DNA of 35,877 bases from Pseudomonadales bacterium (lineage in GTDB: Bacteria > Pseudomonadota > Gammaproteobacteria > Pseudomonadales > Azotimanducaceae), in assembly GCA_030728785.1 (NCBI GenBank), contig JANQYP010000065.1:75290-111166 (forward strand). The letters are read 5' to 3'. Below the pieces are notes generated by a model. The model saw only the letters and a program-made list of their open reading frames with translations. It did no database searches and was not told the origin of the DNA. The position numbers and the translations under genes are program-made. Below, piece after piece: positions 1 to 15,145 of this stretch (position 1 is the stretch's first letter; each line of letters starts with the position of its first letter).

Positions 1-3000
1 CCGGCAACTATGCCGGTACTTACGCAGAACTGCACTGCATCAGCCATTACTCCTTCCTGCGCGGCGCCTCCCATCCCGAAGAACTGGTAAGGCAGGCCGC
101 CAGGCTCGGTTACCATGCCCTGGCCATCACCGACGAATGCTCCATGGCCGGGATCGTCAAGGCCCATGTCGCAGCCCGGGAGCACGGCCTGAAACTGATT
201 GTCGGCAGTGAGTTTTACCTGGATGACAACACCCACCTGGTCCTGCTGGCGCCCAATCGTATCGGCTATGGGCAGATTTGCAATCTGATCACTGTCGGCC
301 GCCGGCGCGCCACCAAGGGTAGTTACGACCTGGGGCTCAAAGATACAGAATTTGGCCTCGACCAGTGTCTCGCTATCTGGCTGCCCGAGCCGGCCCGGCA
401 GGCCCCATCGGCCGACACGGGAAAGCAGCAGGGCGAGCACCTGCAAGCCGCCAGTGTCGGGCAGTTGCTGGCGCGACACTTCAGCAAGCGCCTCTGGCTG
501 GGCGTGCAGATTTACCCCGACGGCCAGGAGATGGCGACCTACCAGCAGGCTTTCAGTCTTGCCCGCACGCTTGACCTGCCCATGGTCGCCTGTGGTGATG
601 TGTATATGCATCACCCAAGCCGTAAGGCCCTGCAGGATGTGGTCTCTGCCATTCGCATCGGCCAGCCCCTGCGCCTGGCGGGCAAGCTGCTGCAGGCTAA
701 CCGGGAAAAATACCTGCGCCCGGCGGCGCTGCTGGCCCGCCTCTACCCGGCGGCCCTGCTGGCAGAAACCCTGCATATTGCTGACCTGTGTGATTTTTCC
801 CTGGATGAGCTGCGGTATGAATATCCTCAGGAGCTGGTACCAGCAACCCTCTCACCCGCCCAGTACCTGCGCCAGCTGGTCGAAGCCGGCGCCCGGCAAC
901 GCTGGCCAGGCGGCATCAAACCCCATGTCCAGGCGACCATTGAGAAAGAGTTGCAGCTGATCCGCGAGTTACAGTATGAGTATTATTTTCTGACAGTGTT
1001 CGACATAGTCCATTTTGCCCGCGAGGCTCGAATCCTCTGCCAGGGCCGTGGTTCCGCCGCCAACAGCGCCGTCTGTTACTGCCTGCAGATCACCGAGGTG
1101 GATCCAGCCAAAAGTGACCTGCTGTTTGAACGTTTTATCTCCAAAGAGCGGGATGAGCCACCGGATATTGATGTCGACTTTGAGCATGAACGGCGCGAGG
1201 AGGTGATCCAGTATATCTACAAAAAATATGGTCGCCACCGGGCCGCACTGGCCGCCAGTGTTATTACCTATCGCCCCAAGAGTGCCGTACGCGATGTGGG
1301 CAAGGCCCTGGGCATGGACCAGGGCCTGGTTGATCACCTGGCCAGTTCCCTCTCCTGGTGGGACAAGCGAGATGAATTGCTGACCCGCTTCGAGGCGGCG
1401 GGCATCAATCCCCGCAGCCCGATTATCGGCCAGTTTATTACCCTGGTGCAGTTGTTACTGGGCACACCACGGCACCTGTCGCAACATGTGGGTGGCTTTA
1501 TCATCGCCAGCGGCCCCCTGTCGCAGCTGGTGCCCATTGAAAATGCCGCCATGCCAGATCGCACCATCATCCAGTGGGACAAGGATGATCTGCAATCCCT
1601 GGGCCTGCTGAAAGTCGATATCCTGGCTCTGGGTATGCTCACGGCCATCCGCAAGAGCCTGGATATGGTGAACCAGTACCGCCACACCCAACTGGACCTG
1701 GCGAGTATTCCCACGGAAGACCCTCTCACCTACCAGATGCTGCAACGAGGTGACAGTATCGGCGTCTTCCAGGTGGAGTCCCGGGCCCAGATCTCCATGT
1801 TGCCACGCCTTAAGCCGGCCTGCTTTTATGACCTGGTGATTGAAGTGGCCATTGTCCGGCCCGGGCCTATCCAGGGCAATATGGTCCATCCTTACCTGAA
1901 ACGCCGTAACGGCGAGGAAGCGGTGACCTATGCCAACGAGGCCGTTAAGGCGGTACTTGGCCGCACCCTTGGCATTCCCATTTTTCAGGAACAGGTGATC
2001 AAGCTGGCCGTTGTCGCGGCAGGTTTTTCCCCCGGCGAGGCTGACCAGCTGCGGCGTGCCATGGCGGCCTGGAAACGTAAGGGTGGACTGGAAATATTCC
2101 AGCAGAAACTGGTTAATGGCATGCTTGAGCGCGGCCATGACCAGACGTTCGCCGAGCGCATTTTTGAACAGATTAAGGGTTTTGGTGACTATGGCTTCCC
2201 CGAGTCCCATGCCGCCAGCTTTGCCCTGCTGGTGTATTTTTCCGCCTGGCTGAAGTGCCATGAACCGGCGGCCTTTTATTGTGGCCTGCTTAACAGCCAG
2301 CCCATGGGCTTTTATTCACCCTCACAACTGGTGCAGGATGCCCGCCGCCATGATATTGAGATACGACCCGTGGATATCCGCCACAGTGATTGGGAGTCAA
2401 CCCTTGAGGCGCCACGCCAGCTGGGCCGGGTGGCACCCCGGCAGCCAGCCATACGGCTAGGCCTGCAGCGTATCAAAGGCCTCAAGACTGAAACTATATT
2501 CCGAATTCTGCACGCTCGCCGCGAGCAGCCCATCAGCGACCTTGAGGACATCGCCCGCCGCGCCCGCCTGGACCGAGGTGACCTGGCCCGCCTGACAGAG
2601 GGTGGTGCATTTAAAGGCCTGGCCGGACATCGCTACCAGAGCCATTGGCAGGCCCGAGGCCTGTTACCCGCAACAGCCCTTGAGCAGAGTGTTTTTACAG
2701 AGCGGTTTACAGAGCAGGTTGCCGAACAGGACGCGGTTTACCTGTCGCCTCCGGCAGAAGCTGATGACCTGCGCGCCGACTACCAGAGCCTCGGGCTGAC
2801 CCTGGGTCGCCACCCCATGGCCATGTTACGCGCCACGGGCAAACCCTTCAGCCAGTGCCAGAGCGCTGCTGACCTGCGGGACCTGAACCACGGCCGTTTT
2901 GTCCAGGTAGCCGGCATCGTCACCGGTCGCCAACGGCCCTCCTCGGCATCAGGCGTGCTGTTTTTGACCCTTGAGGATGAGACCGACAACATCAATGTGG

Positions 3001-3176
3001 TGATCTGGACCCGGGTACTCGAACAATACCGCACAGCCATCATCCAAGGCCGGTTGCTGAAGGTAAAAGGTATTGTTGAGCGCAACGCCGCTATCGTCCA
3101 TGTCATTGCCGGCCAGATAGAAGACTGGAGCCAGCATCTTGACCATTTTGCCTTACAGTCCCGGGACTTCAGGTAG
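1..3176 (+). CDS. dnaE2: Error-prone DNA polymerase DnaE2 (ImuC), 5' end cut by window edge
   Basis: Translesion polymerase of the C family, replicating damaged DNA in SOS mutagenesis. The frame is open from base 3, giving about 1057 visible residues, so only a few N-terminal residues should be missing from a usual length near 1000-1070. The PHP domain starts at once with the typical DnaE2 segment ELHCISHYSFLRGAS, so the methionine at 144 lies inside the domain and is not the start. The palm carries PDIDVDFEHERR, followed by HVGGFIIASGPL and YGFPESHAASFALLVYFSAW, characteristic of DnaE2. An OB-fold with VQVAGIVTGRQRP lies near the C-terminus. By family knowledge it works with ImuA and ImuB, probably encoded just upstream outside the window. 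Its last 8 bp overlap the end of the convergent Ca2+-ATPase gene. Identification is secure; the start is not visible. Confidence 0.96.
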   Translation, partial: GNYAGTYAELHCISHYSFLRGASHPEELVRQAARLGYHALAITDECSMAGIVKAHVAAREHGLKLIVGSEFYLDDNTHLVLLAPNRIGYGQICNLITVGRRRATKGSYDLGLKDTEFGLDQCLAIWLPEPARQAPSADTGKQQGEHLQAASVGQLLARHFSKRLWLGVQIYPDGQEMATYQQAFSLARTLDLPMVACGDVYMHHPSRKALQDVVSAIRIGQPLRLAGKLLQANREKYLRPAALLARLYPAALLAETLHIADLCDFSLDELRYEYPQELVPATLSPAQYLRQLVEAGARQRWPGGIKPHVQATIEKELQLIRELQYEYYFLTVFDIVHFAREARILCQGRGSAANSAVCYCLQITEVDPAKSDLLFERFISKERDEPPDIDVDFEHERREEVIQYIYKKYGRHRAALAASVITYRPKSAVRDVGKALGMDQGLVDHLASSLSWWDKRDELLTRFEAAGINPRSPIIGQFITLVQLLLGTPRHLSQHVGGFIIASGPLSQLVPIENAAMPDRTIIQWDKDDLQSLGLLKVDILALGMLTAIRKSLDMVNQYRHTQLDLASIPTEDPLTYQMLQRGDSIGVFQVESRAQISMLPRLKPACFYDLVIEVAIVRPGPIQGNMVHPYLKRRNGEEAVTYANEAVKAVLGRTLGIPIFQEQVIKLAVVAAGFSPGEADQLRRAMAAWKRKGGLEIFQQKLVNGMLERGHDQTFAERIFEQIKGFGDYGFPESHAASFALLVYFSAWLKCHEPAAFYCGLLNSQPMGFYSPSQLVQDARRHDIEIRPVDIRHSDWESTLEAPRQLGRVAPRQPAIRLGLQRIKGLKTETIFRILHARREQPISDLEDIARRARLDRGDLARLTEGGAFKGLAGHRYQSHWQARGLLPATALEQSVFTERFTEQVAEQDAVYLSPPAEADDLRADYQSLGLTLGRHPMAMLRATGKPFSQCQSAADLRDLNHGRFVQVAGIVTGRQRPSSASGVLFLTLEDETDNINVVIWTRVLEQYRTAIIQGRLLKVKGIVERNAAIVHVIAGQIEDWSQHLDHFALQSRDFR

Positions 3177-5814
3177 GCAGATGCTCGGCTCGGCGGCGGC
3201 ACAGGTATTTTTCCAGCTCCACAGCCACAAATACCAGGCTTGCCAGCAGGCCACACATACACAGAACCTCGGCAGACAAGGGCGTGAGGCTGAACAACTG
3301 GTTCAGCCAGGGGTTATAGACCAGCAGCAGTTGTATCACCACGGTGCCAGCGACTGTCGCCAGCAATGGTCGATTGCTGCCAAGACCAAGCTGCCACAAG
3401 GACAAGTGTTCGGAACGGATCGCCATGACGTGGGCCAACTGGGCCAGGGTCAACACCGTAAACACCGCCGTCCGGGCTTCGGCGTCACTGGCACCGCGGC
3501 CCAGCACCCAGGCTTGGGCGCACAGGGCAACGCCGCCAATCAAAAGTCCGACCCAGAGGATATGCTGCCACATGCCGGCGGCAAAAATACTCTCTGCTGT
3601 TGGCCTTGGTGGCTGTCGCATCGACCCGGCCTCTGCCGGCTCAACGGTCAGCGCCAGTCCGGGCAGGCCATCGGTGACCAGGTTGATCCAGAGAATATGC
3701 ACCGGCAACAGTGGCAGCGGCAAGCCCAGAAGCGGCGCAAGAAACAGTGTCCAGACTTCGCCGGCGTTACTGGTCATTGTGTATTTAATAAATTTACGGA
3801 TGTTGGCGTAGATACGCCGCCCTTCCCGTATGGCACTGACAATGGTGGCAAAGTTATCATCCAGCAGCACCATGTCGGCAGCCTCGCGCGCCACATGAGT
3901 ACCCATCTGGCCCATGGCGATGCCAATATCCGCCCGTTTGAGCGCCGGCGCATCATTCACCCCGTCACCAGTCATGGCACAGAATTCGCCCTGAGCCTGC
4001 AACGCCGCGACAATCCGCAACTTCTGCTGCGGCGAAACTCGCGCATAAACATGTATTTGGCCAACCTGCGCCTGCAGTTCAGCGTCGGTCCAGGCCGCTA
4101 CAACACTGCTGCTCACCACTTGATCTGCGCCATCACAGATCTGCAGGCGACGGGCGATGGCAAGGGCTGTTGCCGGATGGTCACCGGTGATCATTACCGG
4201 TCTAATACCCGCAGCGCGACACTCGGCAACGGCCTGCCGGGCTTCTGGTCGGGGCGGGTCAATCAGCCCCACCAGCGCCAGAAATTCCAGCTTCGACTCC
4301 ATGGCAGCGGCGCCAATATCTGCCGGCTTGTGGTCGAGGCGTTTTGTGGCCAGGGCCAGCACTCGGTACCCCTGCGCCGCCATCTCCTGCGCCCGGGCGA
4401 GCAGCGCCGCCCGCTCCAAAGGCTCGACACCACCGCGGGTGCGCACCTGTTCGCACAACGCCAGTATGGTTTCCGGCGCGCCCTTGGCATAGACCCGCAG
4501 GCCAGCGCCATCCTTATGCACGGTGGTCATGCGCTTGCGCTCAGCATCAAAATTAAATTCCGCCAGCCGCGGCCGCCGGCGCTCAGCGGCAGGTTTCAGC
4601 AGCCCGGCCTGTTGGCCGGCGGCGCACAGAGCAACTTCCGTCGGGTCACCCTGCAGCTCACCGGCACTGACAACAACATTGTTATTCAAGACCAGCGCCT
4701 CCTGCAGCCACAGCGCCCATTCATCCGTAGCAGCGGGCACCGCTGGCAACATTTGGTGGTCGGCGTACAAGCTGTCGAGGTGCATCTGGTTGAGGGTCAG
4801 GGTACCGGTTTTATCCGTGCAGATGACGGTCACCGAGCCCAGGGTCTCGACCGCCGGCAGGTGCCTGATCAAGGCTCGCTGGCGACTCATTTTTCTCGCC
4901 CCAAAGGCCAGCGCAACGCTGATGACCGCCGGCAAAGCCTCGGGAATGGCCGCGACTGCCAGACTCACCGCCACCAGAAACATCAACACCAGGGGTTCAC
5001 CACGGAGCAGGCCAGCCGCGAAAATAATGCCGCAGATGAGCAGCACAGCCAGCGCCAGACGCTGGCCAAACACTGCCAGGCGCTGCTGCAATGGCGTTAA
5101 CGGCGTCTTAGTATCCTCCAACAACCGAGCGATCTGGCCCATCTGGGTCGTCATGCCGGTGCGTGTCACTAACCCTCGGGCCCGGCCCCGCTCCACCTGC
5201 GTGCCGCTGAAGGCCATATTCAACCGGTCTGCCACGGGTTGTTCGCCCGCCAGTGGTGCAACAGACTTCTGCCTGGCCACTGACTCGCCGGTCAGGGCAG
5301 CTTCGTTAATCACCAGGTCCTGACTGGTCAGCAGCCGCAGGTCTGCCGGCACCACCATCCCGGCCTCAATGCTGACAATATCGCCTGGCACCAGTTCGGG
5401 GCTCGGCAGCAGGCAGACCTGGCCATCCCTGAGCACCTGGCTGTCGTTGCCGACCATGGCTTGCAGGGCAGCCACGGCGCGCTCGGCACGATAGGCCTGG
5501 ATGGCACCCACCAGCCCGTTAAGCAGCACAATCAGGAGGATAATCAGCATATCCAGCAGGTCACCAAGCAGGCCCGCGACCAGTGCCGCGGCAATCAACA
5601 CCAGGATCATGACATCACTGAACTGGCGCCCTAACAACCGCCAGAGCGGCTGCGCTCGGGTTTCCGCCAGACTGTTCAGCCCGGCCTGAGCGCGCCGTTG
5701 GAATACTTCGGCGGCAGCCAGACCAAGGTCCGGGTCAACCTTGTAGTGCTGCAACAGCTCGTCTGCAGATTGCAGGTAGCTCTGGTCAGCATCAATGCCG
5801 GGAACATCTGCCAT
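3169..5814 (-). CDS. P2A-type Ca2+-transporting ATPase
   Basis: An 881-residue cation pump of the inner membrane, related to SERCA and PMR1 and expected to export Ca2+ (possibly Mn2+) using ATP. Visible signatures are actuator motif TGES at 175-178, PEAL in M4 at 291-294, phosphorylation motif DKTGT with Asp334, and hinge motif GDGVND at 616-621. SERCA Ca2+ ligands are conserved: Glu292 in M4, Asn683 and Glu686 in M5 (SNAGE), Asn711, Thr714 and Asp715 in M6 (NLVTDGLP). This favours Ca2+ over Na+/K+ or heavy metals. ATG start at 5814, 10 bp after the stop of the CCC1-like gene, so it is likely the last gene of a DUF211-CCC1-ATPase operon. Its stop lies inside the 3' end of convergent dnaE2, with no terminator between them. 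Ion specificity is inferred from ligands only. Confidence 0.93.
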   Translation of the reverse strand: MADVPGIDADQSYLQSADELLQHYKVDPDLGLAAAEVFQRRAQAGLNSLAETRAQPLWRLLGRQFSDVMILVLIAAALVAGLLGDLLDMLIILLIVLLNGLVGAIQAYRAERAVAALQAMVGNDSQVLRDGQVCLLPSPELVPGDIVSIEAGMVVPADLRLLTSQDLVINEAALTGESVARQKSVAPLAGEQPVADRLNMAFSGTQVERGRARGLVTRTGMTTQMGQIARLLEDTKTPLTPLQQRLAVFGQRLALAVLLICGIIFAAGLLRGEPLVLMFLVAVSLAVAAIPEALPAVISVALAFGARKMSRQRALIRHLPAVETLGSVTVICTDKTGTLTLNQMHLDSLYADHQMLPAVPAATDEWALWLQEALVLNNNVVVSAGELQGDPTEVALCAAGQQAGLLKPAAERRRPRLAEFNFDAERKRMTTVHKDGAGLRVYAKGAPETILALCEQVRTRGGVEPLERAALLARAQEMAAQGYRVLALATKRLDHKPADIGAAAMESKLEFLALVGLIDPPRPEARQAVAECRAAGIRPVMITGDHPATALAIARRLQICDGADQVVSSSVVAAWTDAELQAQVGQIHVYARVSPQQKLRIVAALQAQGEFCAMTGDGVNDAPALKRADIGIAMGQMGTHVAREAADMVLLDDNFATIVSAIREGRRIYANIRKFIKYTMTSNAGEVWTLFLAPLLGLPLPLLPVHILWINLVTDGLPGLALTVEPAEAGSMRQPPRPTAESIFAAGMWQHILWVGLLIGGVALCAQAWVLGRGASDAEARTAVFTVLTLAQLAHVMAIRSEHLSLWQLGLGSNRPLLATVAGTVVIQLLLVYNPWLNQLFSLTPLSAEVLCMCGLLASLVFVAVELEKYLCRRRAEHLPT

Positions 5815-5824
5815 CGTCAGGACC

Positions 5825-6460
5825 TCAGGGCCATGCTGCGGCCCCCGCCGGGGTCGCCAGGAGAATGATGGCCCCCGTCAGCAGGGCGATGCACAACGTT
5901 CGCAACCCTGACCACAACCAGCCGTGACCGCCGATCCGGCCTAGATAGGCACCCAGCAGAAAGATCACCACCAGCCCCAGCAACATGGACGTTTCAAGTG
6001 GCGTGAAACCCAGCGCCGCCACCAGTGTCGACACCTGCGGCGGTACCCACAGCGGCAGGAGGATCAGCAGGGACAGACCAAAAGGTGCCAGACCATTGAC
6101 CAGTGCTACCACCACAGGTATCAGCCGCGCCGCAACCCCGTGGGCAGAGGATTGCAGGTCAGTTACCATGGCCGCCTCCAGTGTTTGCAGTGCCGCCCGC
6201 TGCTCCGCAGACTCGCTCAGATAAGCGCTGCTGAGACCACTCATACCCAAGGCTATGGCCGCGCCGACGCAAGCGCTGGTAATAACGGTCAAAGGTGCAG
6301 ATGTGTGCCCAGCAAGCTCCGCATGATAAAAGCCGACCAGCATGCCCAGCATGGTCAGGGCCCCGTCAAAACCATTCACCACAAAATACCGGCGCGCAAT
6401 ACCGGTGGCCCGGGTCAGTTGCATGATCAGCGCCAGCTTGCTGGCACCCTTCACAAACAC
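5825..6460 (-). CDS. CCC1/VIT1-like integral membrane protein (TIGR00267 type)
   Basis: A 211-residue membrane protein resembling the VIT1/CCC1 family of Fe2+/Mn2+ transporters, closest in pattern to the TIGR00267 branch known mainly from archaea. The family motif is RRYFVVNGFDGALTMLG near residues 23-39, followed by further hydrophobic segments including ACVGAAIALGMSGLSSAYLSE, a short charged helix SAEQRAALQTLEAAM, and two C-terminal hydrophobic hairpins. The long metal-binding insertion of plant VIT1 is absent. The start is GTG at 6460 without a clear Shine-Dalgarno; an ATG at residue 13 is a possible alternative. It lies 24 bp after the DUF211 gene and 10 bp before the Ca2+-ATPase gene, in one direction, suggesting co-transcription and a shared role in divalent cation handling. 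The substrate cannot be told from sequence. Confidence 0.8.
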   Translation of the reverse strand: MFVKGASKLALIMQLTRATGIARRYFVVNGFDGALTMLGMLVGFYHAELAGHTSAPLTVITSACVGAAIALGMSGLSSAYLSESAEQRAALQTLEAAMVTDLQSSAHGVAARLIPVVVALVNGLAPFGLSLLILLPLWVPPQVSTLVAALGFTPLETSMLLGLVVIFLLGAYLGRIGGHGWLWSGLRTLCIALLTGAIILLATPAGAAAWP

Positions 6461-6484
6461 ACGCCTGCCCAGGCAGCCACTGGG

Positions 6485-6757
6485 CTAGGAGTTATCCACA
6501 GCCATACAGACTGCCTCAACCTCATCAATACTGTGTAAGGCAGCACCCAGAGCCTGAATCGTCGCTGCCAGGGAACCCATGGGGATATCCTCACCAGTGA
6601 CCGTAATCTCGACGGACTCGGTATTTTCATCCACCTCAATCACCCGGTAGTTAACCCTGTGGCCAGGGCAACTTTCAGCAAGGCGACAACAGAAATCCAG
6701 GGCACTGGGTGTATGAGGCTTGAGGACATCAAGCACCAGACGTTTAATTGCCGCCAT
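6485..6757 (-). CDS. DUF211 family small protein, putative Ca2+-binding sensor
   Basis: A 90-residue soluble protein with the DUF211 pattern: RLVLDVLKPH at residues 6-15, an acidic middle (IEVDENTESVEITVTGEDI) and a C-terminal HSIDEV at 75-80. The family has a ferredoxin-like fold and is found mostly in archaea. I recall, without being able to check, that an archaeal member was reported to bind Ca2+ and form oligomers. The ATG at 6757 is preceded by GGGTGG. It is the first gene of a probable operon with the CCC1-like protein and the Ca2+-ATPase, which fits a sensor or regulator of cation transport. Family membership is fairly sure; function is inferred from context. No clear promoter was seen in the 239 bp upstream. 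Confidence 0.82.
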   Translation of the reverse strand: MAAIKRLVLDVLKPHTPSALDFCCRLAESCPGHRVNYRVIEVDENTESVEITVTGEDIPMGSLAATIQALGAALHSIDEVEAVCMAVDNS

Positions 6758-6915
6758 AGATCCACCACCCTATGCAACAGTACTTGGGACACACAAACGC
6801 ACAGACTGCACCGTAACCGCAGGACAAGCCCGGCAACAATGACGCAGCGCAGACAAACACTCAGTCAACGGGACCAGCGCTGGGGTTGGCGAGACTGGCC
6901 GGCAGGCAAAGGCGG

Positions 6916-6946
6916 GGCTGGCGGTGCTGCCAGCCGCAGGTGCGGC
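6916..6946 (-). terminator. GC-rich hairpins after gspM, possible terminator
   Basis: A perfect 7-bp stem (GGCTGGC 6916-6922, GCCAGCC 6929-6935, 6-nt loop) is followed by an overlapping 5-bp stem GCCGC/GCGGC (6933-6946). They lie about 60 bp past the gspM stop and upstream of the DUF211 operon. No T-run follows on the minus strand, so factor-independent termination is uncertain. Confidence 0.35.
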
Positions 6947-6958
6947 GGTAAAGATTAG

Positions 6959-7014
6959 TTATGGAGAACTAGTTTTGGAGAACTAATTTTGGAGAACTAA
7001 TTTTGAAGGATAAC
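6959..7014. repeat. 14-bp tandem repeat overlapping the gspM stop codon
   Basis: Units on the plus strand are TTATGGAGAACTAG (6959-6972), TTTTGGAGAACTAA (6973-6986), the same again (6987-7000), then a diverged TTTTGAAGGATAAC (7001-7014). The third unit holds the gspM stop codon (6997-6999, complementary strand), and the fourth is the last coding part. The unit length is not a multiple of three, and the copies extend into the untranslated side. Confidence 0.9.
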
Positions 7015-7494
7015 GCGGGCACTGACTGTGCCGGGCAAATCGTCTCTGTCGATGGAAATCTGGCGCACGGTAATACCCTGTTGCGCCTGCGCCTCCAGCC
7101 AGCGCACCAGGTTGTTGAAATTCACATCGTCGAACCAGACGCTCACCCCATCACTGCCTTCTGGCTGGAGGCGATTGGGTTTTATCTGGAAACCCTGGGT
7201 GGAACTTGAAATCTGCGACAACAGGGACTGGCCTGCCAGCGCGCTGGCCTTGCCGGAACCCAGGGCCCTGGCCTGGGCCTCGGTGGCATGCAGGTATTGG
7301 ATCAGGCTGAGCTGGCGCTCCCGTTGGGCCATGCTCGAGGCATAAAAATTGTTCACCGGTGCCCACACCAACAGGTAAAACAAAAGCCCGACGACAAACA
7401 CCACCAACAACTGCAAGGCACCGCGATCACGGGGCGGCAGGCCATGGTAGCGCGCAACAAGCTGCAATATTCGAGGATGTTCTGCCAGGCTCAT
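6997..7494 (-). CDS. gspM: Type II secretion system protein GspM
   Basis: A 165-residue inner-membrane assembly factor of the type II secretion system, which binds GspL and stabilises the platform. A short cytoplasmic N-terminus precedes one hydrophobic segment around residues 28-46 (LLVVFVVGLLFYLLVWAPV). A periplasmic coiled region and a ferredoxin-like C-terminal domain follow (DGVSVWFDDVNFNNLVRWL, then RQISIDRDDLPGTVSARVIL), as in GspM. The ATG at 7494 shares one base with the gspL stop (TGATG), implying translational coupling. It is the last recognisable gene of the secretion operon; no gspN follows. A 14-bp tandem repeat covers its stop codon. Confidence 0.92.
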   Translation of the reverse strand: MSLAEHPRILQLVARYHGLPPRDRGALQLLVVFVVGLLFYLLVWAPVNNFYASSMAQRERQLSLIQYLHATEAQARALGSGKASALAGQSLLSQISSSTQGFQIKPNRLQPEGSDGVSVWFDDVNFNNLVRWLEAQAQQGITVRQISIDRDDLPGTVSARVILQN

Positions 7495-8738
7495 CAAACG
7501 CCACCCACAGCTTTAATCTTGATACTGCCCTTGACCACATCTGCCTCCTGATTAATGGTTCCGATATCAGCCTGCAGCCCCGCACCCTTGAGGGTCTGAA
7601 CAAAACTCACCAGCAGATCACTGCGTGGCGCCTGAACCTGCAGGATCAGGTCACCACGACTGTCATTATAATTAACGCTGCCCAGCACCAGTTCCGTGCT
7701 CGGCAGACGTTGTACTGTGGCTGCCAGCAGCGGCAGAAAGCCCGCCGCACCGGCGTTGTCGGCATTACCCAGCCGGGCCCGCCATTGGCGCCGCAGGTCC
7801 TTGATATTCTTATCGTTGGGAAACACCTCTGTATACAAAGCCAGGGCCTCGGCTTCAAACTGCTGGGCCTGGCGCTTCAGGTAAATTCCCTGCGCCAGCA
7901 ACAGGCCAAGATGCAGGCACACAGCCAGAACTGCCAAACCCGCCACTGAGCGCCAGATGGCCGCAGGTCCGGCGGAAGATTGACGCGCTACTCGAAACTC
8001 ACCCTGCAGCAGATTCAACCCAGCCGGCTCAAGATGCCTGCAGATGAAGTCAAAGGCCGGCTCTTCGAGCTCGATAAGCTGACAAGCCATATTATGTTCG
8101 GCATTCACCTGGCTGATAGCCAGCTCGATGTCCTGGCGCTGCTCACGGGGGACAAAAATCACCAGGCCGGTGCGCTGTTCCGGCGTCAGCAGACCAATGG
8201 CCAGGGCCATCTGCGGCAGGGTAAAGGTGAAACCCGTGGCGTTGCTGGTGCGCACCAACAAGCGCTCACCATCCACCAGCAGGCTGCTGCCGCCGGGCTG
8301 GGGTAACTGCAGGACATCAACCAGCAGGCACTCAGGCGCCAGGCCTGCGGCCTTGATACTGTCAATCCAGCGACTCAGGGCGAGCCGCTCCATCACCGCG
8401 ACACTGATATCGCCATTAGCCTGGCGCTCGCCGACGGCAAAGTGACAGTCTTCGATATCGGCAGCAAGCTTTTCTTCCACCGCGTAAGGCACCGCCTGCA
8501 TAATCTGCCGAGGTTGTTTGCTGGGAATGGTGGCGCTGGTGAGCAGCAGCTCTTCAGTCTGGAGAATGGCATAGGTATGCCCGCTCCAGCTGATGCCTTT
8601 GAAGCGTTCCGCAAGTTCTGCCGGCGCGGCGCTGCCACGCAAACGCACTTCGTGGCTGACAGGGTCCTGCAGCAGCCATTCCACCAGGTCTTCGCCGGCG
8701 CTGCTGGTCCTCAGCCGCAAAAACAGATTATCTGCCAC
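7494..8738 (-). CDS. gspL: Type II secretion system protein GspL
   Basis: A 414-residue bitopic inner-membrane protein linking the ATPase GspE to the pseudopilus platform. The N-terminal part is an actin-like cytoplasmic domain (MQAVPYAVEEKLAADIED is the typical GspL segment near residues 79-96). It is followed by a transmembrane helix around residues 260-280 (VAGLAVLAVCLHLGLLLAQG) and a periplasmic ferredoxin-like domain. The start is GTG at 8738, supported by GAGGT five bases upstream. It overlaps gspM by one base and is 81 bp downstream of gspK, the largest gap in the G-to-M part of the operon. Length and architecture are normal. Confidence 0.93.
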   Translation of the reverse strand: MADNLFLRLRTSSAGEDLVEWLLQDPVSHEVRLRGSAAPAELAERFKGISWSGHTYAILQTEELLLTSATIPSKQPRQIMQAVPYAVEEKLAADIEDCHFAVGERQANGDISVAVMERLALSRWIDSIKAAGLAPECLLVDVLQLPQPGGSSLLVDGERLLVRTSNATGFTFTLPQMALAIGLLTPEQRTGLVIFVPREQRQDIELAISQVNAEHNMACQLIELEEPAFDFICRHLEPAGLNLLQGEFRVARQSSAGPAAIWRSVAGLAVLAVCLHLGLLLAQGIYLKRQAQQFEAEALALYTEVFPNDKNIKDLRRQWRARLGNADNAGAAGFLPLLAATVQRLPSTELVLGSVNYNDSRGDLILQVQAPRSDLLVSFVQTLKGAGLQADIGTINQEADVVKGSIKIKAVGGV

Positions 8739-13657: not shown

Positions 13658-15145
13658 TCAATCTGCCATGGTGACACGCACCACTTCGTCGGCGGAAGTG
13701 ACACCGGCCAACACCTTCTGGCAACCATCCTGGCGAATACTGGTGGTCTGGCTGCGAGCATGCAGTTCCAGGTCCAGTTCTGAGGCGTTAGCATGAATCA
13801 AACGCCGCATCTCGTCGTCTATCACCAGCACCTCAAAGATACCCACTCGGCCACGATAACCTTCATTGGCACATTTGTCACAACCCACGGGTCGATAAAG
13901 GGTAACTGGCGGCGTTTTTTCCACCATCAGCATCTCACACTCCAGATCACTGGCAATGTAGGCCTCGCGGCAATGTCTGCAGAGCACTCGAATCAGGCGC
14001 TGGGCAATCAGGCCAATGACGCTGTTGCTCAGCAGATAACTCTGGATACCCATGTTACCCAGCCGGTTGAAGGCCCCGGTGGCGGTGTTGGTGTGCAGGG
14101 TCGACAACACCAGGTGACCTGTAAGGCTGGCCTGGACTGAGATATCCGCAGTCTCGTGGTCGCGAATCTCCCCCACCATGACCACGTCCGGGTCCTGCCG
14201 CAATATGGCCCGCAGGCCGCGTGCAAAGGTCATCTCCGCCTTGGTGTTGACCTGGGTCTGGCCAACCCCTTCGACGTCGTATTCAATCGGGTCTTCGACG
14301 GTGAGAATGTTGCGGCTGCGGTCATTCAGTTGGTCCAGACAGGCATACAGGGTGGTGGATTTACCAGAGCCCGTAGGCCCTGTCACCAGGATAATGCCAT
14401 GGGGCTTTTGCAGCAGGCGCTGCATGGACTTCAGGTCACCAGGATTCATACCCATGTTCACCAGGCCGCGGCGGCTCTCCTGCTTGTCCAACAGCCGCAT
14501 CACGACCCGCTCTCCATTGCTGGCGGGAATGGTGGAGACCCGAACGTCCACTTCCTTGCCACCCACGCGCACAGATATACGGCCATCCTGGGGCAGGCGC
14601 TTCTCGGCAATATCCAGGCGCGCCATGACCTTGATCCGCGACACCAGCAGGGGCGCCAGTGCCCGCCTCGGGCTGACTACCTCGCGCAACACACCATCCA
14701 CTCGAAAGCGGATGACCAGCCGAGTTTCATAGGTTTCCACATGGACATCGGAGGCCCCGACATTGACCGCCTCCGTTAACAGGCTGTTGATAAGCTTGAT
14801 GATGGGCGCGTCGTCATCCTGCTCCAACAGGTCACCCATCTCGGGAATCATATCTGCGAGGCTGCTCAGATCCATGCCCTCACCCAGACCCTCAATCATC
14901 TGCATGGCCTCGCCCGCGTCATTCTGGTAGGTACTCGACAGCTGGCCGTCAAAAGTTGGGCCGTCAACCTGCTGCAGATTAACCCCTGCGCCCACATAGC
15001 GGCGCACCTCCATCAGCACGGCTGGCTCTATGCCCGCCTTGAACAGCACAGACACGGGACCGGCACCGGCGCTGGCCAAAAGCAACACACCATGACGCTT
15101 GGCAAACGAGAAAGGCAGCCTCAACTTTAATGCAGCTTGACTCAT
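13658..15145 (-). CDS. gspE: Type II secretion system ATPase GspE
   Basis: A 495-residue hexameric cytoplasmic ATPase powering pseudopilus assembly. Walker A GPTGSGKST is at 256-264, the Asp-box region TVEDPIEYDVEGVGQ is at 282-297, Walker B DPDVVMVGEIRD is at 318-329 and the His box LTGHLVLSTLHT is at 341-352. The zinc-binding tetracysteine is Cys389, Cys392, Cys422 and Cys425 (CRHC and CDKC). The N-terminal domain is of ordinary size. It is the first gene of the operon here; gspC and gspD, which often precede it, are absent. ATG at 15145. A 10-bp inverted repeat lies 44 bp upstream and may control expression. Confidence 0.97.
   Translation of the reverse strand: MSQAALKLRLPFSFAKRHGVLLLASAGAGPVSVLFKAGIEPAVLMEVRRYVGAGVNLQQVDGPTFDGQLSSTYQNDAGEAMQMIEGLGEGMDLSSLADMIPEMGDLLEQDDDAPIIKLINSLLTEAVNVGASDVHVETYETRLVIRFRVDGVLREVVSPRRALAPLLVSRIKVMARLDIAEKRLPQDGRISVRVGGKEVDVRVSTIPASNGERVVMRLLDKQESRRGLVNMGMNPGDLKSMQRLLQKPHGIILVTGPTGSGKSTTLYACLDQLNDRSRNILTVEDPIEYDVEGVGQTQVNTKAEMTFARGLRAILRQDPDVVMVGEIRDHETADISVQASLTGHLVLSTLHTNTATGAFNRLGNMGIQSYLLSNSVIGLIAQRLIRVLCRHCREAYIASDLECEMLMVEKTPPVTLYRPVGCDKCANEGYRGRVGIFEVLVIDDEMRRLIHANASELDLELHARSQTTSIRQDGCQKVLAGVTSADEVVRVTMAD

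Follow-up and report, generated by a model that had tools for sequence, protein, structure and literature searches.

A stretch of 35,877 nucleotides from a Pseudomonadales bacterium of the family Azotimanducaceae (GenBank assembly GCA_030728785.1, contig JANQYP010000065.1), hereafter called the window, carries a row of three genes: one for a protein of the DUF211 family, one for a TIGR00267-like membrane protein with the VIT fold, and one for a P2-type Ca2+-ATPase-like pump. The first two products probably form one functional unit for Ca2+ handling, in which the VIT-like protein would move the ion and DUF211 would sense or deliver it, and the ATPase is a third component of the module, often present but optional. 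Gene pairing, co-occurrence in genomes, folds, kept and lost residues, and repeated linkage to unrelated families of Ca2+ transporters were all computed, and the link of the module to Ca2+ is well supported. The three genes are as follows.

6485..6757, minus strand: DUF211 (COG1888/arCOG04140) protein, 90 amino acids (PF02680, E 3.3e-23)
5825..6460, minus strand: TIGR00267-like VIT-fold membrane protein, 211 amino acids, GTG start (TIGR00267, E 2e-13, below the cut-off)
3169..5814, minus strand: P2-type Ca2+-ATPase-like pump, 881 amino acids (PF00122, PF00702, PF00689; best model TIGR01522, below the cut-off)

On their shared strand, the DUF211 gene is followed after 24 bp by the VIT-like gene, and the latter after 10 bp by the ATPase gene. 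An original prediction, made from the sequence alone, had given the same distances, which are confirmed for three minus-strand open reading frames, and had proposed that a DUF211 sensor, a CCC1-type transporter and a Ca2+ exporter form a complete calcium homeostasis unit. Its observation is partly confirmed and its interpretation partly supported: neighbourhood genomics supports an association of the genes with one another and with calcium transport, but the ATPase is an optional member.

Pairing of DUF211 with a VIT-like gene

The three-gene unit was described in the original prediction as unusual in a gammaproteobacterium. This did not hold up, as DUF211 is present in 40 of 369 gammaproteobacterial genomes, though it is patchy among near relatives (4/58, including the window genome). 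For the neighbourhood counts, 42 gammaproteobacterial loci were fetched in addition to the window. Of the 40 DUF211-containing genomes, 37, from 29 families, have a VIT-like gene adjoining DUF211, and the two genes are also adjacent in three of three further relatives. Two rows among the 37 are weaker, namely L036 with a divergent VIT-like match and L075 with a fragment at a contig end. The three unpaired cases are G215, where the contig ends; G323, where the genes lie about 434 kb apart on one contig; and G273, where the DUF211 match covers only 36 positions and has no VIT-like neighbour. A VIT-like gene at a contig edge of G286 is found in a genome with no DUF211 match. At the genome level, a full-length TIGR00267-like match is present in 38/40 genomes with DUF211 vs 1/329 without it, partial matches (fewer than about 150 of 171 positions) being uncounted in this sample. 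These neighbourhood counts argue that the association of the genes is not due to chance. A selection of the remaining neighbours of the gammaproteobacterial pairs was compared with Pfam (NAPRTase, TrkH, Cpn10, SelO, MCP and others), and those in the selection all differ from one another.

The pair is also found outside Gammaproteobacteria. In other Pseudomonadota, DUF211 was detected in 8 of 249 genomes (two already counted, one doubtful), and in family f218, which belongs to another proteobacterial class, all five loci have the pair and two have an ATPase in the locus. Chloroflexota have DUF211 in two of 201 genomes; the pair is present in 3/3 loci of this phylum including L150, and the DUF211 match of L186 has an in-frame stop. 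DUF211 is common in Thermoproteota (77/151 genomes), and the pair was found in 8 of the best 30 loci, once convergent (L204) and once in reverse order (L216). The DUF211 matches of G600 (E 3.6e-4, in a 950-amino-acid frame) and G1031 (E 1.7e-4) were treated as doubtful. A wider search of the genome collection gave at least 590 pattern matches to DUF211, of which 583 were confirmed; the best 80 loci, mostly of Archaeoglobi and methanogens, were kept, and three of them are paired, none with an ATPase. A TIGR00267 match somewhere in the genome was present in 13 of 14 DUF211-containing genomes tested. Clustering of archaeal DUF211 neighbours by BLAST placed a VIT-like gene in 11 of 110 loci, and the other recurrent neighbours each appeared to be restricted to a single lineage. 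No relative of DUF211 was found in viral contigs.

The trees are consistent with the main pair having entered Pseudomonadota once. Of the 63 rows in the VIT-like tree, the 43 from Pseudomonadota group together (100/99), with f218 placed inside the gammaproteobacteria, and the archaeal lines are nearest to this group, weakly. The DUF211 tree (97 rows, 83 columns) likewise has 46 Pseudomonadota rows in one group (SH-aLRT 99), and the divergent protein of G267 falls among archaea. The G267 locus is the L036 mentioned above, with a divergent VIT-like neighbour; a separate transfer or a binning error is possible. Joint transfer from archaea, which the original prediction had raised as a possibility, would be compatible with these trees.

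Calcium transporters beside the pair

Eleven of the 40 gammaproteobacterial genomes, representing 10 families, have an ATPase gene directly downstream of the pair and on its strand. There are more complicated arrangements: the ATPase of L049 is a convergent next-door neighbour, L047 has a pump of another clade directly upstream of the pair, and L046 (9670-10060) and L064 (9863-11016) retain decayed ATPase remnants behind an intact pair. Close relatives of the window ATPase (E <= 1e-200) were found in 17 of the 40 genomes, 12 adjoining the pair and 5 elsewhere.

The best NCBIfam model for the window pump is TIGR01522, the PMR1-type Ca2+ ATPase, at 668.7 bits vs a cut-off of 798.3, which leaves it outside the formal family. 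In SERCA numbering, the Ca2+ ligands E309, N768, E771, N796, T799 and D800 are kept and E908 is replaced by Q. Thus, six of the seven side-chain ligands of the two-site SERCA type are present, and not every one of them as was originally claimed. The same signature, including the Q, recurs in all 12 further full-length ATPases that belong to this clade and adjoin a pair (among them the convergent one of L049), and the ATPases of other clades near the pairs of L038, L041 and L047 differ in their ligand signature. A single clade for all linked ATPases gave a P value of the approximately unbiased test (p-AU) of 0.002 when L065, which has an ATPase of the same clade but 6 kb from the pair, was counted as unlinked, and 0.305 when it was counted in. 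By the latter value, gammaproteobacterial and haloarchaeal ATPases may be one clade, and the ATPase may have joined the pair once or more often.

On haloarchaeal plasmids, DUF211 and VIT-like genes occur in the same 27 records, in all 27 on the same strand with 50-220 bp between the matches. Twenty-five of these loci were examined (the two omitted have scores identical to those of a listed record), and an ATPase and/or a Na+/Ca2+ exchanger is present in 15 of them. Within about 5 kb there is a P2-type ATPase in 11/25 (8 on the same strand, 3 opposite) and a Na+/Ca2+ antiporter in 5/25 (2 same strand, 3 opposite). For example, Halomicrobium urmianum has the gene order of the window (DUF211, VIT-like, ATPase), and in Halorubrum PV6 DUF211, VIT-like, ATPase and Ca/Na antiporter genes stand in a row. 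In Halomontanus rarus the ATPase is located in front of the pair, as in Halopiger with one gene between. All seven SERCA ligands, including E908, are present in 10 of 10 full-length haloarchaeal ATPases. In L256 (NZ_CP085307.1), an unannotated VIT-like reading frame lies between DUF211 and ATPase. In L249, L251 and L253, the large genes annotated as "hypothetical" next to the pair had no Pfam match at E 0.001. Genes for universal stress proteins are often found in the surroundings of the haloarchaeal pairs (L249-L273).

In Methanosarcinales, two draws of 109 and 108 genomes were treated as one sample less one. Among 108 genomes, 38 have both genes, 4 DUF211 only, 7 TIGR00267 only and 59 neither, at a TIGR00267 threshold of E 1e-19 (a coverage rule swaps G1023 for G1071 with the same counts). 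DUF211 was found in none of the best 30 TIGR00267 loci of this order. In 23 of these 30 loci, the TIGR00267 gene has a Na+/Ca2+ exchanger gene no more than 1.5 kb away, downstream on the same strand in 19 and convergent in 4, and all seven exchanger-type proteins checked (that of L167 and six more) belong to PF01699. Universal stress protein genes are nearby in 11 of the 30. A search of gammaproteobacterial and archaeal loci with one archaeal exchanger as the query found only L167/L178 and L044, and other exchanger types could be missed by it; in L044, from a gammaproteobacterium, the exchanger (4079-5326) is about 2.7 kb from the pair.

Thus, a constant pair is combined with an exchangeable Ca2+ exporter from two unrelated families, a pattern that points to Ca2+ as the shared theme and speaks against an operon formed by chance.

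The proteins of the pair and the flanks of the locus

The 90-amino-acid protein belongs to PF02680 (82.1 bits vs a cut-off of 22.1). Its predicted fold is a ferredoxin-like beta-alpha-beta-beta-alpha-beta arrangement (model pLDDT 95.5), and the best matches in PDB are 3bpd (E 5.4e-9, TM 0.86), 2raq and 2x3d. The first Foldseek match outside the family is the nickel regulator NikR at E 2.5e-3. In 85 bacterial and archaeal rows, a few of which are the same gene twice, D10, D43, S76 and D78 are invariant and H75 is nearly so. The Archaeoglobus fulgidus protein (3bpd) is described as a toroidal homoheptamer (PMC9953691). The literature covered for DUF211, MTH889, SSO6206, COG1888 and arCOG04140 yielded surveys, papers on structure geometry and unrelated matches, and no function in the text available from them. 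A table of archaeal proteins that are conserved but uncharacterized lists arCOG04140 with a count of 252 and no context (PMC6393860), and COG1888 has two table rows with low variability and ArsR neighbours in Thermococcales (PMC9425974); in the accessible parts of both papers, these rows name neither a VIT-like partner nor calcium. Another candidate paper, PMC3484140, was set aside as its domain is DUF2117.

The middle protein, as judged from its model, has the VIT fold. It reaches 50.4 bits with TIGR00267 (cut-off 156.95, profile positions 1-165 of 171 covered) and 18.3 bits with PF01988 (VIT1; cut-off 28.1), and is therefore a member of neither by profile. The TIGR00267 cut-off is passed in 0/369 gammaproteobacterial genomes, and in 2 of the 14 DUF211-containing genomes of a separate test set. 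The AlphaFold2 model (pLDDT 89.9, alignment of 35 rows) had plant VIT1 as its top Foldseek match (E 3.4e-3, probability 1.00), with none under E 0.001. By VIA, VIT1 (6iu3/6iu4) gave Z 16.3 (root-mean-square deviation 4.5 over 174 residues) and 16.2, and the next family only Z 7.7. The original term "CCC1-like" is thus valid as a statement on the fold, but not on membership of these profile families.

In the model, the long helix 57-98 is followed almost at once by helix 106-138, which indicates that the cytosolic metal-binding domain located between TM2 and TM3 of VIT1 is missing; the VIT1-like protein of L218, from the same class, has a longer stretch between those helices. The mapping of residues rests on the fold and on a profile alignment to VIT1 6iu3. 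The match as a whole is weak (E 1.1), but the part that starts before E72 and ends at M80 has no gaps. D43 of VIT1 corresponds to a kept D32, M80 to G75, and E72 to A67. G75 is invariant in 35 of 35 aligned gammaproteobacterial proteins; the 26 rows from archaea and Chloroflexota all have D32, and 73% of them have glycine at position 75. Both D43 and M80 of VIT1 are reported to be essential for iron binding (PMC10281983, PMC11578967). Two alignments with the L218 protein were not used for the mapping: that by hhalign was confined to the C-terminal half (probability 24.8), and that by MAFFT had gaps inside TM2.

The genes around the locus are of other kinds.

144-3176, opposite to the ATPase gene: error-prone DNA polymerase (NF004225, 1349.7 bits)
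6997-7497, upstream of DUF211: GspM (type II secretion)
13658-15145, upstream of DUF211: GspE (type II secretion)

The polymerase gene runs toward the ATPase gene and overlaps it by 8 bp; its NF004225 match starts at profile position 47, and its true start may be further upstream. Right behind gspM and upstream of DUF211, a repeat with a period of 14 bp occurs three times (6956-7008). A promoter scan of 3000-7200 found no promoter, and the nine terminator-like sites in the same region (3.5 expected) were not used as evidence, several of them being intragenic. Rfam gave no match in the window and six loci. The window genome (2.55 Mb, 72 contigs, 84.9% complete) has a single DUF211 match.

Proposed calcium handling, alternatives and known systems

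We infer from these data that the VIT-like protein transports Ca2+, that DUF211 binds Ca2+, and that the two are in physical contact. The VIT-fold protein, built on the five-helix VIT core, would carry Ca2+ (Mn2+ is less likely) through the cell membrane and, like VIT proteins, would probably remove it from the cytosol. DUF211 would be the soluble partner which binds the ion or gates the transporter, and might stand in for the metal-binding domain that the VIT-like protein lacks. As the main exporter, many lineages may have added a P2-type Ca2+-ATPase or a Na+/Ca2+ exchanger. A bolder version, to which we give somewhat less than an even chance, is that DUF211 is a heptameric Ca2+-binding ring docking on a VIT-fold protein which, after the loss of its metal-binding domain and iron ligand, turned to Ca2+, as a new two-part transport system of archaea and bacteria.

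Several points weigh against Ca2+ handling by the pair. The support is computational and the roles of the two proteins are predicted; a match to the VIT1 fold does not show transport, and the loci examined showed no gene fusion. Mn2+ or Fe2+ can also be substrates of PMR1-type pumps and VIT proteins. Shared ancestry inflates the co-occurrence figures, so that Fisher values serve only as a guide. Twenty-five of the 40 gammaproteobacterial genomes are without a Ca2+-ATPase directly beside DUF211 or the pair (one of them, L041, has a pump of another clade one gene upstream), and the ATPase clade is also present in 10 of the 329 genomes lacking DUF211. In L046 and L064 the pair is intact and the ATPase decayed, and therefore the pair does not need that pump. 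No Ca2+ gene was found in 10 of the 25 haloarchaeal loci, and 3 of the 11 haloarchaeal ATPases and 3 of the 5 exchangers are on the opposite strand. Finally, the original prediction had named random neighbours of DUF211 elsewhere as a ground for refutation. The neighbours are non-random in bacteria and on haloarchaeal plasmids, but 77 of the 80 collection loci, mostly of methanogens and Archaeoglobi, have no VIT-like neighbour in the DNA examined (64 of them with at least 900 bp of flank on both sides). Non-halophilic euryarchaeal loci are mostly unpaired, with lineage-specific DUF211 neighbours.

This last group of loci bears on the idea that DUF211 has a regulatory or housekeeping role unconnected with cations, and that the bacterial neighbourhood is one old co-inherited pair. 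The unrelated neighbours in most euryarchaeal loci examined, the ArsR neighbours reported from Thermococcales (PMC9425974) and the single Pseudomonadota group in both gene trees, G267 apart, would fit with it. It is nevertheless quite improbable in our estimate, as the pair recurs in distant phyla with differing order and strand (convergent in L204, reversed in L216) and persists while other neighbours change, and both genes co-occur in genomes even where they are apart. An unlikely but more substantial alternative is that the module handles manganese or iron like the characterised VIT/CCC1 proteins, with the pump as a PMR1-like Mn2+/Ca2+ ATPase. VIT proteins move Fe2+, Mn2+ and Co2+, and loop-less plant VTL proteins partly complement iron transport, so that the missing loop alone is not new (PMC7540006). 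PMR1-type is the best model for the window ATPase and likewise for two haloarchaeal pumps, and most haloarchaeal VIT-like proteins have a rule-based manganese term of the Gene Ontology in RefSeq. However, the partners come from two unrelated Ca2+ families, namely Na+/Ca2+ exchangers and P2 ATPases which have the full SERCA site in all ten full-length haloarchaeal cases. Furthermore, the iron-binding M80 is glycine in every gammaproteobacterial protein aligned, though in not all archaeal and Chloroflexota rows, and neither the window nor the six loci searched with Rfam gave a match to an Mn2+ riboswitch.

The pair may instead be an entry or leak path for Ca2+, whose opening is controlled by DUF211 and which is balanced by the adjoining exporters. 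Such a path shares the Ca2+ part with the export reading and differs in direction, and the odds of the two are not exclusive. With two kinds of exporter already beside the pair, a third would be redundant, and the pair stays constant while the exporter is exchanged. Known VIT-fold proteins, however, export cations from the cytosol in exchange for protons (PMC7540006, PMC11578967), and we assign the entry path a low probability. Export of Ca2+ by the VIT-like protein with DUF211 as its partner remains the favoured reading.

No description of a DUF211/VIT-like pair was found in the literature covered, which leaves out most subscription journals and preprints. For DUF211, with three solved structures and no function found, the pairing and the Ca2+ linkage make the question directly testable. 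Haloferax volcanii, which had matches to both the DUF211 and TIGR00267 families in control searches, can be genetically manipulated. If true, Ca2+ handling would extend to Ca2+ a transporter fold so far associated with iron and manganese and contribute a piece to the poorly understood Ca2+ homeostasis of prokaryotes, and the heptameric ring would give arCOG04140 its function.

Among known systems, the window DUF211 protein shares family and fold with the structures of DUF211/COG1888/arCOG04140 (3bpd, 2raq, 2x3d). The pump matches P2A Ca2+-ATPases (SERCA, PMR1/SPCA and Listeria LMCA1) over most of its length and differs from SERCA in having Q in place of E908. In LMCA1, which has a single site, Arg795 lies in the region of SERCA site I (PMC11977196). 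The VIT-like protein has the fold and the TM1 aspartate in common with Eucalyptus VIT1 (6iu3/6iu4) and, more widely, with the plant and protozoan VIT1/CCC1 Fe2+(Mn2+)/H+ exchangers. Unlike these, it has no cytosolic metal-binding domain, a glycine at M80, a soluble DUF211 partner next door and Ca2+ transporters as neighbours. A VIT-like membrane part without the VIT cytosolic loop also occurs in MbfA, where a ferritin-like domain is fused to it. Bacterial MbfA is an iron exporter, and plant VTL proteins share the loop-less membrane part with the window protein (PMC7540006). The module differs from both MbfA and VTL in that its partner is a separate DUF211 protein and its context is calcium.

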